64,000 nucleotides of DNA from Candidatus Anammoximicrobium sp. (lineage in GTDB: Bacteria > Planctomycetota > Planctomycetia > Pirellulales > Pirellulaceae): positions 1 through 64,000 of the forward strand of contig JAAYYU010000009.1 of assembly GCA_012515235.1 (NCBI GenBank), in the 5' to 3' direction. Below the pieces are notes generated by a model. That model was not told the origin of the DNA and searched no databases. It worked only from the letters and a program-made list of their open reading frames with translations. Position numbers and translations under genes: made by a program. Positions 32,409 through 36,527 of the stretch are shown in pieces. The number at the start of each line of letters is the position of its first letter. Within the stretch, counting starts at the first letter, position 1.

Positions 32409-32455
32409 AACCGGGCCGTGGACGAAGCGCCCGACGACTGGGGTCTTTGAAAGAC

Positions 32456-32554
32456 TGGGGTCAGGCTTACAGAATTCAATTTGGGCCGATGGTAACTCCA
32501 ACCACGTGGCACGACCTTGCTCGGCCCAAATTGAATTCTGTAAGCCTGACCCCA
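32456..32554 (-). repeat. Dispersed 31-nt-loop hairpin, copy A
   Basis: Perfect 34-base arms (32456-32489 and 32521-32554) enclose a 31-base loop. The arms begin GGGGTCAGGCTTACAG and contain GAATTCAATTT, then GGGCCGA. The loop, read on the minus strand, starts GCAAGGTCGT and aligns with the loops of copies B, C and D. A 10-base direct duplicate of the arm end (GACTGGGGTC at 32436-32445 and 32453-32462) lies beside it. It sits between the PQQ-protein gene and the DGR template repeat. Confidence 0.85.
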
Positions 32555-32930
32555 GAGCGGTACGCATGATGCGCAGATCTGCAGGGTCGAAAATCACGGC
32601 AGCGGGCACCAAGCCACCGCCCCGGCGGCCACGCAAGCCGCGACCGCGGCCAAAGCCGAGCGGCAAAACAAGGTAGACCCCGCACGCCAAATTGGGCCGA
32701 CGTCTCCGCCGACCGCAGTTCTCCCAAACCCTGGAGACCCAAAAGTGCCCGCGAGGACGTTCGGCTCGCGCCTACCAGCCCTCGCGGGACGGTTTTGTGA
32801 TTCGGCCAACCCGCAGCGGACTGCGGATCGACGCCGGACAGCGGTCTGGACTCGCACCACGGCACGCCCGTCCGGTCCGTGAACCAGACGGCTCTGGCTG
32901 GACGAAGCCCCCAGGGCCTCGCGCGGAGTG
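32555..32930. other. Non-coding stretch downstream of the DGR template repeat
   Basis: This is where a DGR cassette would normally carry its reverse transcriptase. These 376 bases are too short, and no reverse-transcriptase motif was found in any frame on either strand. The frames are Arg/Ala/Pro-rich and look non-coding. A small CCAGA-CGGC-TCTGG stem at 32884-32897 lies just beyond the template repeat; its meaning is unknown. Confidence 0.5.
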
Positions 32931-33065
32931 CTGGAGAAAAAGCCGAAACCACCCGAAAACCCATGTTTTGGTTGCGGTTGTCGGGATGGTTCCTGTTCCG
33001 GTTGTCGGAGCGCGCATTGACGCTGGGATTGTTCCAGCAGCCGCCACGCACAACACGGCCAACGT
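32931..33065 (-). repeat. DGR template repeat (TR)
   Basis: A 135-base copy of the 3' end of the neighbouring variable gene, in the same orientation and offset by exactly 432 bases. Aligned base by base it differs from the variable repeat at 11 sites (plus-strand positions 32967-32969, 32973, 32979, 32994, 32997, 33003, 33018, 33030 and 33032). All 11 are A on the coding strand, out of 28 adenines in the repeat; no other base differs. If translated it would be Asn-rich, because its adenines lie in AAC and AAT codons, as in known DGR templates. The last 36 bases on the coding strand are invariant and nearly free of A, as expected for the initiation end. Confidence 0.93.
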
Positions 33066-33143
33066 TCGACCGCCACCCGAGCGGAACACGGCGTCCCGCC
33101 AAGTAGACAGTATGGCAGATTGGGAGCACATCGCCACCCAGTA

Positions 33144-33216
33144 CCCCCTGATCTTTCCCCTCATCTTTCACACGCATCAACCAGTTCTGAATGAGATTGG
33201 GTGAAAGATCAGGGGG
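33144..33216. repeat. Long inverted repeat between TR and VR
   Basis: Arms CCCCCTGATCTTTC (33144-33157) and its complement GAAAGATCAGGGGG (33203-33216) enclose a 45-base loop. A second nested pairing (ATCTTTCAC with GTGAAAGAT) is possible. It lies in the spacer between template and variable repeats. It could be another dispersed element or a structure used in retrohoming; neither can be decided here. Confidence 0.6.
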
Positions 33217-33258
33217 CATTCGTGCCTGGGTTCCCTCCGGCGGCCGGAACCTGCTTTT

Positions 33259-33288
33259 CGAAAAATTTTTCGCGCGCCGCTGCGCGGC
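33259..33288. other. Palindrome and small hairpin just downstream of the variable gene
   Basis: A perfect 14-base palindrome CGAAAAATTTTTCG (33259-33272) is followed by a GCCGC-TGC-GCGGC stem (33276-33288). Read leftward, they come about 65-90 bases after the stop codon of the variable protein. A pyrimidine-rich tract (C and T with scattered A, about 33289-33345 on the minus strand) lies between. Known DGRs need a hairpin close behind the variable repeat for efficient homing; this is a candidate, though farther away than usual. A terminator role is the alternative. Confidence 0.4.
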
Positions 33289-33351
33289 TTGCGGTAAAGG
33301 GGAGAAGGAGTAAAGGAGGAAAAGTGGTAAAAGAGTAAAACAGCCAAAAAA

Positions 33352-36300
33352 CTACGCGAGTCCTGGAGAAAAAGCCGAAACCACCCGAAAACCCATGTCC
33401 CGGTAGCGGTCGTCGGGATGGTTCCCGTCCCGGTAGTCGGAGCGCGCATAGACGCTGGGATCGCTCCAGCAGCCGCCACGCACAACACGGCCAACGTAGG
33501 ATTGGCCGGGATACTTTACCTCCACGGCATCTGCGCACCATTCCCAGACGTTTCCAGCCAGATCCTCCAGTCCCAGCGCCTTCGAGCGGGAACGCGGGAA
33601 CAGGCCCACCGGCGTCGTCTTCTGGAGTTTCAGTTCGTCCGTGTTGCAGATCCCGTCTTGCCCGTCGTTTCCCCACGGGTACACGAGCGCTTGCGGGCCA
33701 CGGGCCGCGGCTTCCCATTCCAACTCGCTGGGCAGCCGGCCGCCTGCCCAGTGTGCAAACGCCTCCGCCTCCCAGAACGAAATGCCGACCACCGGCTGAT
33801 TGGCGCCGTTCCATTTCGTCTCCCGCCGATATTCCGGCTCGCTGACGTTCCCCTGCTCGTGCCACTGCCAGCCTTCCTCGGACCAACACTCGCGCTGCTC
33901 GTAGCCGCCATCCTGCACGAACCGGCGGAACTGGGAATTGGTCACGGGGTAGCGGGAGATGAGGAACGGCTGCATGACCTTGAACTTCTGCTTTTTGAGC
34001 GGCTTGATCGCATATCCGGCCTCGCCCCCGCCCACCGTGTACGTTCCCGCCGGCACCTGGACCCACGCTCGCGGATCGGTGTGCTCGCGCAGATCCTCGG
34101 CGATCCGCGGATCGCCCATTCGTCCCAGGGCCAGTCCCAGTTCGACGCGCGGCTCGATCGGCGACTCGCGTTCAATGGCGTCCAGGCACAACTGGCGGAA
34201 TTGCTCGACGTGGCGTGCCTGCAATCCCACGCCGCGTCCGGCCAGGATCTCCAGGCAATCCGCCACGACGACGGCCAGCGGCAGCGCGTCGAGCGTCAGC
34301 GGCTCGATCAGGCTCTCCAGCAGCCGGATACCTTTGTCGGGCAGCGTGTTGCGGCTCATCAGCGACGTGAACACGAACGACAGCGCGCTGCGCCATTCCT
34401 GGCGCACGGCGCGGCGGCGGAAGAAGGCGGCCAGATCGGACTCGCGTTCCAGAATCAGCTGGGCCGCCAGGAAATCCTGGAACGTGAAGTGATGGAACCC
34501 AGCCCGCTTGCCGGGCCGCGGCAGCAGCACGCCGGAACGGGTCAGCAGATCGTCGCAAGCCTGGACCGCGCCGCGGAAACCGGGTTCCGTGGCCGGGCTC
34601 TGGTCCCGGTATCGCTGGATCATGCGCTCGATCTCCGCCGTCGTGGCCTCGGCCTGCGGCGTCTCGCGGTCCTCGTCCAGCCCGACGCCGGTGTGCATCC
34701 CGTAGGCGACTACACTCAACCGGTTGCGGACCAGCGGAATCTCCTGCTGCTCGTCCAGATAGCGGTTGTGCAGCACGTTATCCAGGATCCGGTCGTACAA
34801 CTCGTGCTTGTCCCGCGGCAGCCGCTTGCCCTGGTTGAAGATCACGCACAGGGCGGTCAGCAGCATGGGGCTGGAGACCAGCGGCGAGACCTCCGCGCGC
34901 TCGGCCAGATGAGCCCGCATCTCGGCGGCCCGTTCGGCCCCTTGTTCCGCGTCCGGCGACAGGGCGTCGAACCAGCGGCCGACCAACAGTCCCTGGAGCG
35001 GCGCGTCCAGGTCGGCGATGGTGACGCTGCGCAGTCCCAGTCGCCGGGCCTCGACCGCGTTCAGGCCGTAGGGCCGGCTGGTGACCAACACGCGGTTGCC
35101 CTGGCCGGTCCAGTGCGGCACGGCGTCGGCCAGCCCCTCCAGCAGCATCTGCCGCGGATGGTACGCGGAGTCGTCCGGGCCCACGCGGATGGGCACTTCG
35201 TCAAAGCCGTCCAGCATGATCAGCACTCGGCCGCGCTGCAGGTGGCCGCTCACACAAGCCCAGGACAGCTGTCCCGGCTGTTTTTCGTCCAGCCAGCGGT
35301 GCAGGGCGTCCTCCAATCCGCTCCGCGACAAGCCCCGCCCGCCGGGCGTGGCCGGCAAGGCGATCCAGAAGTCGCGCAGCCGGATCAGCAGCGGCAGGTG
35401 CTCGCGGAGCGGTTCGGGGAACGTCTCGCGGTACCCTTCCGGAGCGGCCGGTTCGCGGGCCGGCCACTGCCCGGCATTCACGCCGTGCGCCACCCAGCGG
35501 CAGAACGTCGATTTCCCCGCCCCCGCGCCGCCCTCCACGTACAACGACGTTTCGGCCAACTGGCCCATCAGCAATTCCGGCTTCCGCTCCGCCTCGCGGC
35601 CCGTCCGCTGCAATGCCGCCAGCGCCTCGGCCTTGCCCGTCGTCCGTCCCGGCTGCGGACCGTCGGTGCCATCCGTGATCGTCAGCGGCACGTACACCTG
35701 ATACAGCTGGACCGCCCGCCCCTGCTGGTCCTGCAGCCCCAGCAATTCCACCCCGCTGCACTCGCGGGCCAGCCAAGCCCGATACGCGTCGGGGACGGGC
35801 GCTGTTTCCGCGGTGGGTCCGGGCACCTCGCCGGCCGGTTGACGCGGGACCAGGGCGGCGATGATTTTCCGCAAGTGCGTGTCCACTTGCTCGAAGAACG
35901 CTTCGGCCGTGCCTCGCACCTGCTCGTAGGTCGCGTACAAGCCCCGAGTCTGAACTTCCTCACGGAACTTGCGGACCTGGGCGTACTGGTCCAGATCGAT
36001 TTCGTCGAGAGCGACCTTGGCGGTCTTAAAGTAAAACAGAATCCACGGTTTGCCGGTTTTTCCCCAGCGGCGCAGGGCGTCGCGGAATTCCTTCTCCGTG
36101 CCCGATCCGTAGCGGCCGGTGGGCGTGCCAAAGCGGCAGGCCAGCATCCCCAGGTACACGTCATAGTCGGCGGGCGTTTGGGCATCGACGACGTCCTGGG
36201 GCCGCGGCCCGATCTGCGGCACGACGTCGTCTTCCCATTTCCAAAGTTCCAGCCGCACGTCTTGGGCGCGTACGTCGGTGCGGTTGATGCGCTCGACCAC

Positions 36301-36408
36301 CTCGTCCAACACGCGGCGTTCTTCCGCCACGTCGCTGGGCGAGGAAACGAAGACGCGGATCAGCCTCACAGCTGTTGGCAAGTTCCTGTGTTTGGCGGTG
36401 GAAGTCAC
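33352..36408 (-). CDS. DGR variable protein: DUF4062 - NACHT NTPase - FGE/C-type-lectin domain
   Basis: A 1018-residue soluble protein that starts with GTG. Residues 14-180 are a DUF4062 domain (VRLIRVFVSSPSDVAEERRV), a TIR-like signalling or effector fold. Residues 285-500 are a NACHT-type NTPase with Walker A GGAGAGKST (293-301) and Walker B LIMLDGFDE (397-405). A helical region follows. Residues 782-1015 are a formylglycine-generating-enzyme/C-type-lectin fold (VPAGTYTVGG, YPVTNSQFRRF, LPSELEWEAAARG, GNVWEWCADA). Its last 46 residues are the variable repeat; residues 982, 983, 987, 992, 994, 995, 1000 and 1002-1004 differ from the template. The design is that of an NLR-like sensor or conflict protein with a lectin-fold sensing tip, so self/non-self or phage sensing is a fair guess. 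The lectin fold is used for binding here, not for making formylglycine. Confidence 0.9.
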   Translation of the reverse strand: MTSTAKHRNLPTAVRLIRVFVSSPSDVAEERRVLDEVVERINRTDVRAQDVRLELWKWEDDVVPQIGPRPQDVVDAQTPADYDVYLGMLACRFGTPTGRYGSGTEKEFRDALRRWGKTGKPWILFYFKTAKVALDEIDLDQYAQVRKFREEVQTRGLYATYEQVRGTAEAFFEQVDTHLRKIIAALVPRQPAGEVPGPTAETAPVPDAYRAWLARECSGVELLGLQDQQGRAVQLYQVYVPLTITDGTDGPQPGRTTGKAEALAALQRTGREAERKPELLMGQLAETSLYVEGGAGAGKSTFCRWVAHGVNAGQWPAREPAAPEGYRETFPEPLREHLPLLIRLRDFWIALPATPGGRGLSRSGLEDALHRWLDEKQPGQLSWACVSGHLQRGRVLIMLDGFDEVPIRVGPDDSAYHPRQMLLEGLADAVPHWTGQGNRVLVTSRPYGLNAVEARRLGLRSVTIADLDAPLQGLLVGRWFDALSPDAEQGAERAAEMRAHLAERAEVSPLVSSPMLLTALCVIFNQGKRLPRDKHELYDRILDNVLHNRYLDEQQEIPLVRNRLSVVAYGMHTGVGLDEDRETPQAEATTAEIERMIQRYRDQSPATEPGFRGAVQACDDLLTRSGVLLPRPGKRAGFHHFTFQDFLAAQLILERESDLAAFFRRRAVRQEWRSALSFVFTSLMSRNTLPDKGIRLLESLIEPLTLDALPLAVVVADCLEILAGRGVGLQARHVEQFRQLCLDAIERESPIEPRVELGLALGRMGDPRIAEDLREHTDPRAWVQVPAGTYTVGGGEAGYAIKPLKKQKFKVMQPFLISRYPVTNSQFRRFVQDGGYEQRECWSEEGWQWHEQGNVSEPEYRRETKWNGANQPVVGISFWEAEAFAHWAGGRLPSELEWEAAARGPQALVYPWGNDGQDGICNTDELKLQKTTPVGLFPRSRSKALGLEDLAGNVWEWCADAVEVKYPGQSYVGRVVRGGCWSDPSVYARSDYRDGNHPDDRYRDMGFRVVSAFSPGLA
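33363..33497 (-). repeat. DGR variable repeat (VR), C-terminal lectin tip
   Basis: The 135 bases that encode about residues 971-1016 of the DUF4062-NACHT-lectin protein, ending 8 bases before its stop codon. Compared with the template, ten codons differ. In eight of them Asn became Ser, Asp or Tyr (six single-base Asn changes to Asp or Tyr elsewhere in the repeat, plus adjacent Ser and Asp after GGCW); one Arg became Gly and one Gln became Arg. All changes come from template adenines. Variable and invariant residues alternate as they do on ligand-binding loops of known DGR lectin proteins. Confidence 0.93.
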
Positions 36409-36426: not shown

Positions 36427-36527
36427 ATGGGGTCAGGCTTACAGAATTCAATTTTGGCCGAGCAGGCTCGCTCCACATGGCTGGCCTGACCATCGGCCAA
36501 AACTGAATTCTGTAAGCCTGACCCCAT
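36427..36527 (+). repeat. Dispersed 31-nt-loop hairpin, copy B
   Basis: The arms 36427-36461 and 36493-36527 are 35 bases with one mismatch. They open ATGGGGTCAGGCTTACAG and end TTTTGGCCGA. The 31-base loop begins GCAGGCTCGC on the plus strand. It sits 18 bases upstream of the GTG start of the DGR variable protein and 12 bases from the stop of the next gene, so any promoter of the variable gene must lie in or beyond it. It is in the opposite orientation to copy A, and the two bracket the DGR cassette. Confidence 0.85.

Follow-up and report, generated by a model that had tools for sequence, protein, structure and literature searches.

In the diversity-generating retroelement (DGR) of BPP-1, a template repeat (TR) and a variable repeat (VR) follow an adenine rule, and a hairpin or cruciform 3′ of the VR, with an 8-bp stem and a GRNA loop, is required for efficient homing (PMC3240598). 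The structured spacer RNA after the TR recruits bRT-Avd and primes cDNA synthesis (PMC12875486), and a donor plasmid can supply factors that work on a separate recipient (PMC3240598). DGR loci without a reverse transcriptase (RT), and activity in trans, have been proposed earlier (PMC10907252, PMC4372165). The degenerate DGRs of Thiohalocapsa PB-PSB1 (Dore et al., 2024, PMC10907252) include RT-less loci with NACHT/C-lectin targets and carry repeats resembling miniature inverted-repeat transposable elements (MITEs), in place of the RT at DGR 4 and 5; trans activity was proposed there from sequence, via VRs of DGR 4 and 5 that match a remote TR. Partial DGRs of Nanoarchaeota consist of a target gene, a VR and cis-elements without an RT (PMC4372165). 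The locus considered here lies in the window, the first 64,000 positions of an 81,450-base contig (C405) of Candidatus Anammoximicrobium sp., from a 9.67-Mb draft genome of 417 contigs that is 94.9% complete with 7.57% contamination. It shares the adenine rule and the hairpin after the VR with BPP-1, as well as, in kind and position, a structured RNA after the TR, and it shares an RT-less layout, a NACHT/C-lectin target and MITE-like repeats at the locus with PB-PSB1. Unlike BPP-1, which is complete in cis, it has no detected RT or avd, and the hairpin loops here are of 3 nt (GNA); unlike the Nanoarchaeota loci it retains a TR and its RNA; and, where the trans case in PB-PSB1 depends on a remote TR, it holds a private TR and RNA element, so that only proteins would act in trans. 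Its parts are as follows.

32746–32897, minus strand: conserved structured RNA, 33 nt past the TR, putative RT/Avd-recruiting and priming region (cmsearch model R1, covariation)
32931–33065, minus strand: TR (adenine-only differences, genome match search)
33066–33362, minus strand: VR-TR spacer, 297 nt (comparison with G135:C425)
33276–33288, minus strand: G+C hairpin GCCGC-GCA-GCGGC, preceded by a pyrimidine tract and 74 nt beyond the VR, putative target-recognition hairpin or cruciform (post-VR scan, shuffles)
33352–36408, minus strand: target gene, 1018 aa, with DUF4062, NACHT and FGE-sulfatase/C-lectin-type domains, putative STAND-type conflict sensor (open reading frame, Pfam, PADLOC, 2y3c match)
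33363–33497, minus strand: VR, from codon 971 to just short of the TAG stop (TR/VR alignment)

The TR and VR are each 135 bases long and align without gaps at an offset of 432, with 11 differences, exactly as the original prediction had counted. All 11 fall on a plus-strand T of the TR, an A on the coding strand, where the TR has 28 adenines; thus the VR is changed at 11 of 28 adenines and identical to the TR at the remaining 107 positions, again as predicted. For 11 of 135 positions drawn without replacement, the probability that all land on the 28 adenines is 4.8e-9, compared with the predicted value of about 3e-8 from (28/135)^11. Adenine was replaced by G eight times, by T three times, and never by C. 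Ten codons are altered, with 10 of the 11 changes at codon position 1 or 2, and eight of these codons encode Asn in the TR (changed to Ser, Asp, or Tyr). An adenine-rule repeat search of the window, run in six 16-kb slices starting 12 kb apart (the last of 4 kb, with pairs beyond the slice span invisible), found this pair only, and none in one shuffle per slice; a general repeat search gives the repeat a length of 140 nt. In the genome as a whole, matches to the TR were found only in itself, its own VR, and the TR of another contig, C99 (72% over 108 nt). A tandem duplication of the gene end, with chance or selected substitutions and no DGR, would also leave two copies side by side; given adenine-only changes with P ~5e-9, and the RNA element and hairpin that are common to RT-bearing loci, this origin is hardly credible. 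Because the differences are confined to adenines, the VR is at the 3′ end of an FGE/C-lectin domain with a match to 2y3c, and the same signature stands beside RTs on C99 and a third contig, C368, the two repeats are identified by sequence as the template and variable repeats of a DGR.

The VR had been predicted to lie in a lectin-fold C-terminus, which Pfam bears out with an FGE-sulfatase match (E 3.7e-52) and a sequence search with a match of residues 880–1010 to variable protein 1 (TvpA) of Treponema denticola (2y3c, E 3.6e-6); the C-terminal part also matches FGE, EgtB, and ToxD structures by sequence. The variable FGE/C-lectin domain is common to TvpA and the C405 protein, but in the latter it is fused to DUF4062 and NACHT. 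The DUF4062 match scores 24.8 bits against a cut-off of 24.7, and NACHT (PF05729) scores 34.4 bits against 26.7, with a whole-protein E of 2.5e-8 and no single stretch below 0.001 alone. PADLOC reports one candidate defence family, PDC-S60, at residues 14–184. From its domains, the target may be a NACHT-type sensor of invaders (compare PMC10907252, PMC7159879).

No enzyme was found at the locus. The RVT_1 profile, run against the whole genome at E 0.001, has nine matches, none on C405, and tblastn over 79,999 of the 81,450 bases of the contig gave best E values of 2.3 with the C99 RT and 0.59 with three bAvd proteins; the last 1,450 bases were covered by the RVT_1 profile search only. No RT remnants were found in the spacer between VR and TR. 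The prediction of a DGR therefore stands for the template/variable pair and not for a complete element, the absence of the enzyme having been overlooked: by its sequence the locus is a DGR cassette without enzyme.

Elsewhere in the same genome, RTs on C99 and C368 are accompanied by TR/VR pairs. C99 has the order RT, TR, RNA, target, with a DUF4062/NACHT/FGE-like target (by eye) and an RT that is a 358-residue open RVT_1 frame with GVPIGNQTSQ, adjoining the TR and RNA; C368 has an RT, a TR, and a kinase-like/FGE-like target (by eye). A further locus, on C46 (L021, 1539–6965), has one TR, two targets, a bAvd protein, and a shortened RT that covers only profile positions 106–205, its central block missing by eye; one target is metallophosphatase-NACHT-FGE (Pfam) and the other TIR-like/FGE-like (by eye). 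The three RTs tried against NCBIfam gave only group II, DRT, and retron-type matches, all below cut-off, so their DGR identity rests on the TR/VR pairs and on the GNxTSQ motif, which is typical of DGR RTs. As separate observations, the C99 VR (L017:14059–14201) exceeds its TR by 2 nt close to where the variable stretch ends, and its frame shifts there to give a C-terminus unlike the TR-encoded one; a tandem array of ~70-bp units without bAvd match runs from directly upstream of the C99 RT to the contig end (L017:18691–19058); and L020 (C295) and L024 (C351) each hold a group II-like RT gene divided between two frames, the two genes being very similar.

Past the TR, the DNA of C405 is 76% identical to that of C99 over ~150 nt, and the same region adjoins the RTs of relatives fetched by RT similarity. 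A covariance model of this region (R1) was trained on 15 RT-adjacent elements, hand-chosen where the motif was visible, with C405 and C99 excluded and divergent candidates (L118, L119) and other RT-adjacent regions left out. The consensus has 28 pairs, 25 with changes on both sides in the training alignment; 92.7% of alignment cells pair, against at most 48.5% after sliding partners, and none of 500 shuffles matched any of five measures, although these controls leave relatedness in and the structure was taken from the same alignment. In C405, R1 matches 32746–32897 with 88 bits (E 1.2e-17), and in the same genome it scores 81.1 bits on C99, 47.7 on C46, and 25.5 on C368, the whole-genome scan listing C405, C99, and C368 and not C46. 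Against 80 named RT loci at E 0.1 it has 15 matches, 10 of them training loci, and 65 loci are without a match; the five others (L042, L044, L051, L052, and L058, from a cyanobacterium, Bacteroidota, and Margulisbacteria) all start 6–21 nt beyond an independently called TR. Rfam 15 has no credible match for the RNA, only three sub-threshold ones of microRNA type, and a DNA search of the TR and downstream DNA against 98 relatives found just four short, weak matches outside its own genome. Cyanobacterial DGRs have RTs 47–55% identical to that of C99 and the same RNA element; their remote targets are VR genes defined by similarity to the DGR’s own variable protein elsewhere in the genome (PMC7517822).

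On the VR side, a G+C hairpin was present in eight of 10 post-VR regions scanned, all with GNA triloops (C368 and G359 have none). For each of the eight, a GNA triloop with at least the observed stem occurred in 0 of 300 shuffles, and among 500 random 120-nt stretches of the window none had a GNA triloop, while some hairpin was found in 190. The C405 spacer aligns with the C99 post-VR region at 75% over 113 nt, hairpin included, and also matches that of a relative, G135. An intact G135 locus, on contig C425, has the order VR, pyrimidine tract, hairpin (CGCCGC-GTA-GCGGCG), avd (122 aa, bAvd 6.7e-22), RT, TR, RNA. C405 keeps the pyrimidine tract and hairpin, followed by other sequence and then by TR and RNA; since the cis parts of the intact locus are kept, it looks like a complete locus minus avd-RT, and a deletion of that segment between VR and TR is inferred. 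The spacer also contains an imperfect inverted repeat (window 33144–33216, 23-nt arms, 87%), which might be a terminator or else a scar left by the lost segment.

With R1 at E 0.001 and strict filters, 241 genomes of the same family yielded 13 RNA elements in nine genomes, C405 and C99 among them. A full-length RT is near the element at five (C99, G135:C425, G024:C295, G168:C189, and G245:C741), a single truncated RT match at four (192, 144, 108, and 37 aa), and none at four, in the stretches around the elements (C405, G135:C28, G024:C439, and G042:C422). Across 392 genomes sampled from the phylum, at E 1e-4, there were 17 elements in 16 other genomes, 12 of them with an RT, a few partial, within ~1.5 kb, from which it follows that the RNA marks DGR loci. 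The other five had no RT at E 0.001 within up to 10 kb on each side (less at contig ends), and two of these have an adenine-rule TR/VR pair: G359:C100, with a layout like that of C405 (VR, 178 nt, TR, RNA), has 18 changes at A and 0/101 elsewhere, and G430:C1 has 19 changes at A and 2/80 elsewhere.

Three of the RT-less elements in the family were set aside. Those in G135:C28 and G024:C439 were dropped as TR cassettes and treated as chimeras, since a separate TR is absent and the VR itself leads directly into the RNA element (L158:9267–9615 and L160:9814–10163); in both, the asparagine-rich 3′ part resembles a TR, and the 5′ part has the look of a varied sequence. Recombination between VR and TR that removed avd-RT would explain such an arrangement. 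In G042:C422 no TR is visible, and the element may be spurious. When the DNA upstream of the element was compared with its own locus by blastn at looser settings, 10 further loci showed no clear decayed VR. At one RT-less element (L198:9625–10299, G315:C86) the upstream stretch has two further copies nearby, one direct and one inverted, of 85–86 nt at 89%.

RT matches beside the RNA form a series, full-length at some loci, cut to 192, 144, 108, or 37 aa at others and absent at the rest, as might be expected if C405 were a recent relic, an autonomous DGR that lately lost avd-RT, its VR frozen and its TR and RNA still undecayed. The RT-less pairs of G430 and G359, genomes in which no intact RT was detected, point the same way, as do the 2/80 non-adenine changes of G430. 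The C405 pair itself, with 0/107 non-adenine changes and a well-matching RNA, does not, nor do G000 and G135, which have RT-less or RT-truncated cassettes and retain a full-length RT elsewhere. Recent loss of this kind is a realistic possibility, though we lean somewhat against it.

On balance it is somewhat more likely than not that C405 is instead a non-autonomous DGR cassette, its enzyme supplied in trans. The avd-RT segment would have been lost from between VR and TR; the transcript of TR and RNA would still be recognised by an RT (and Avd) from another locus, the C99 RT being the likeliest, and that RT would copy the C405 TR with errors at adenines; and the mutated cDNA would replace the VR beside the hairpin, so that the C-lectin face of the NACHT-type sensor would be re-drawn repeatedly. 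Several comparisons favour this. Differences at non-adenine positions number 0/70 (C99, up to its indel), 0/93, 2/104, 1/58, and 0/90 at RT-bearing loci, 0/94 and 0/95 at G135:C291 (RT truncated), 1/61 and 1/44 on C46, and 0/90 at G400:C238 (RT fragment). The C405 pair is thus no worse kept than those beside an RT, though its TR is only 72% identical to that of C99, and RT-less pairs are in general no more decayed than RT-bearing ones, in a small set obtained with a finder that admits at most two non-adenine mismatches. The genome encodes a full-length RT alongside an RNA of this family, and the C405 RNA reaches its 88 bits in a model built without it; the C405 and C99 RNAs are 82% identical across aligned columns, and the similarity of their post-VR regions points the same way. 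At G135:C291 the first 166 RT residues are unmatched, yet two different VRs agree with the TR at every non-adenine site (94/94 and 95/95), and a full-length RT is found on another contig of that genome. By analogy, the action of BPP-1 donor factors on a separate recipient (PMC3240598) is also consistent with service in trans.

Other observations weigh against such service. No avd was seen on the C99 and C368 stretches examined, and the sole bAvd found is that of C46, but no genome-wide avd search was made and only 355 nt of the C99 contig lie upstream of its RT. The C405 RNA is about equally close to the G135 RNAs and to that of C99, so the original RT need not have been of the C99 kind, and the finder’s limit of two non-adenine mismatches means that decayed pairs were selected against. 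Activity of the cassette is itself only inferred. The clean G359 pair (0/101) occurs in a genome showing RT fragments with stops only, and a clean TR/VR pair is therefore no proof of activity; in G430, a genome of 99% completeness, the single RT match is weak (9e-17) and the pair has 2/80 non-adenine changes. These two cases indicate that RT-less cassettes also persist where no helper RT was found.

The C405 cassette is bounded by two copies of a palindrome, both located by repeat searches.

32455–32555, no strand assigned: palindrome resembling repetitive extragenic palindromes or MITEs, bounding the cassette on the RNA side
36428–36526, no strand assigned: second copy, starting ~15–20 bp upstream of the target start codon

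Four copies of the palindrome lie in the window (at 32457, 36429, 47517, and 63364). Allowing at most two mismatches, the genome contains 221 forward and 229 reverse copies of its arm, GGGGTCAGGCTTACAGAATTC, against 0 for a backward control. The block between the two bounding copies might be a mobile non-autonomous cassette, moved in one piece by a transposase that acts on the palindromes, which would be compatible with either service in trans or a relic. The palindromes are ~15–20 bp and 190 bp from the cassette ends, and there are also copies on both flanks of one C46 target and on the 3′ side of the C99 target. With so many copies genome-wide, however, and four in the window alone, such neighbours are common, and at the Y1-transposase loci, Y1_Tnp being the sole family looked at, none of 12 carries the palindrome within the flanks examined. 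A link of the palindromes to a Y1 transposase was accordingly rejected, and mobility of the block as a whole seems unlikely.

The palindrome family also ties C405, C99, and C46 into one genome. This bears on whether assembly dropped an RT from the locus, or the bin mixes two organisms, one the source of C405 and the other of C99, as the 417 contigs and 7.57% contamination of the draft might suggest. Since the locus is interior to an 81-kb contig, the palindrome is shared, and the RT-less order VR-TR-RNA recurs in G359, from another family, an artefact of either sort is very improbable.

DGR surveys usually begin from the RT. In the openly licensed papers searched, those on RNA structure and covariance models included, no description of the post-TR RNA family was found, nor any of RT-less cassettes with a private TR and a conserved post-TR RNA. 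Because the R1 model detects DGR loci independently of the RT, it brings to light RT-less cassettes that a survey starting from the RT would pass over. Tentatively, with a little less than even confidence, planctomycete DGRs may be modular, RT and Avd being shared services that act in trans and TR-RNA-VR cassettes recurrent satellites admitted by the post-TR RNA. One enzyme could then hypermutate several sensors, each with its private template, and loss of the RT at a locus would be tolerated, since membership would be set by the RNA and not by linkage. If the cassettes are active, counts of the diversity potential in these genomes are too low, and what an RT requires of a foreign template would become testable, with the covariation-supported RNA as a concrete handle.

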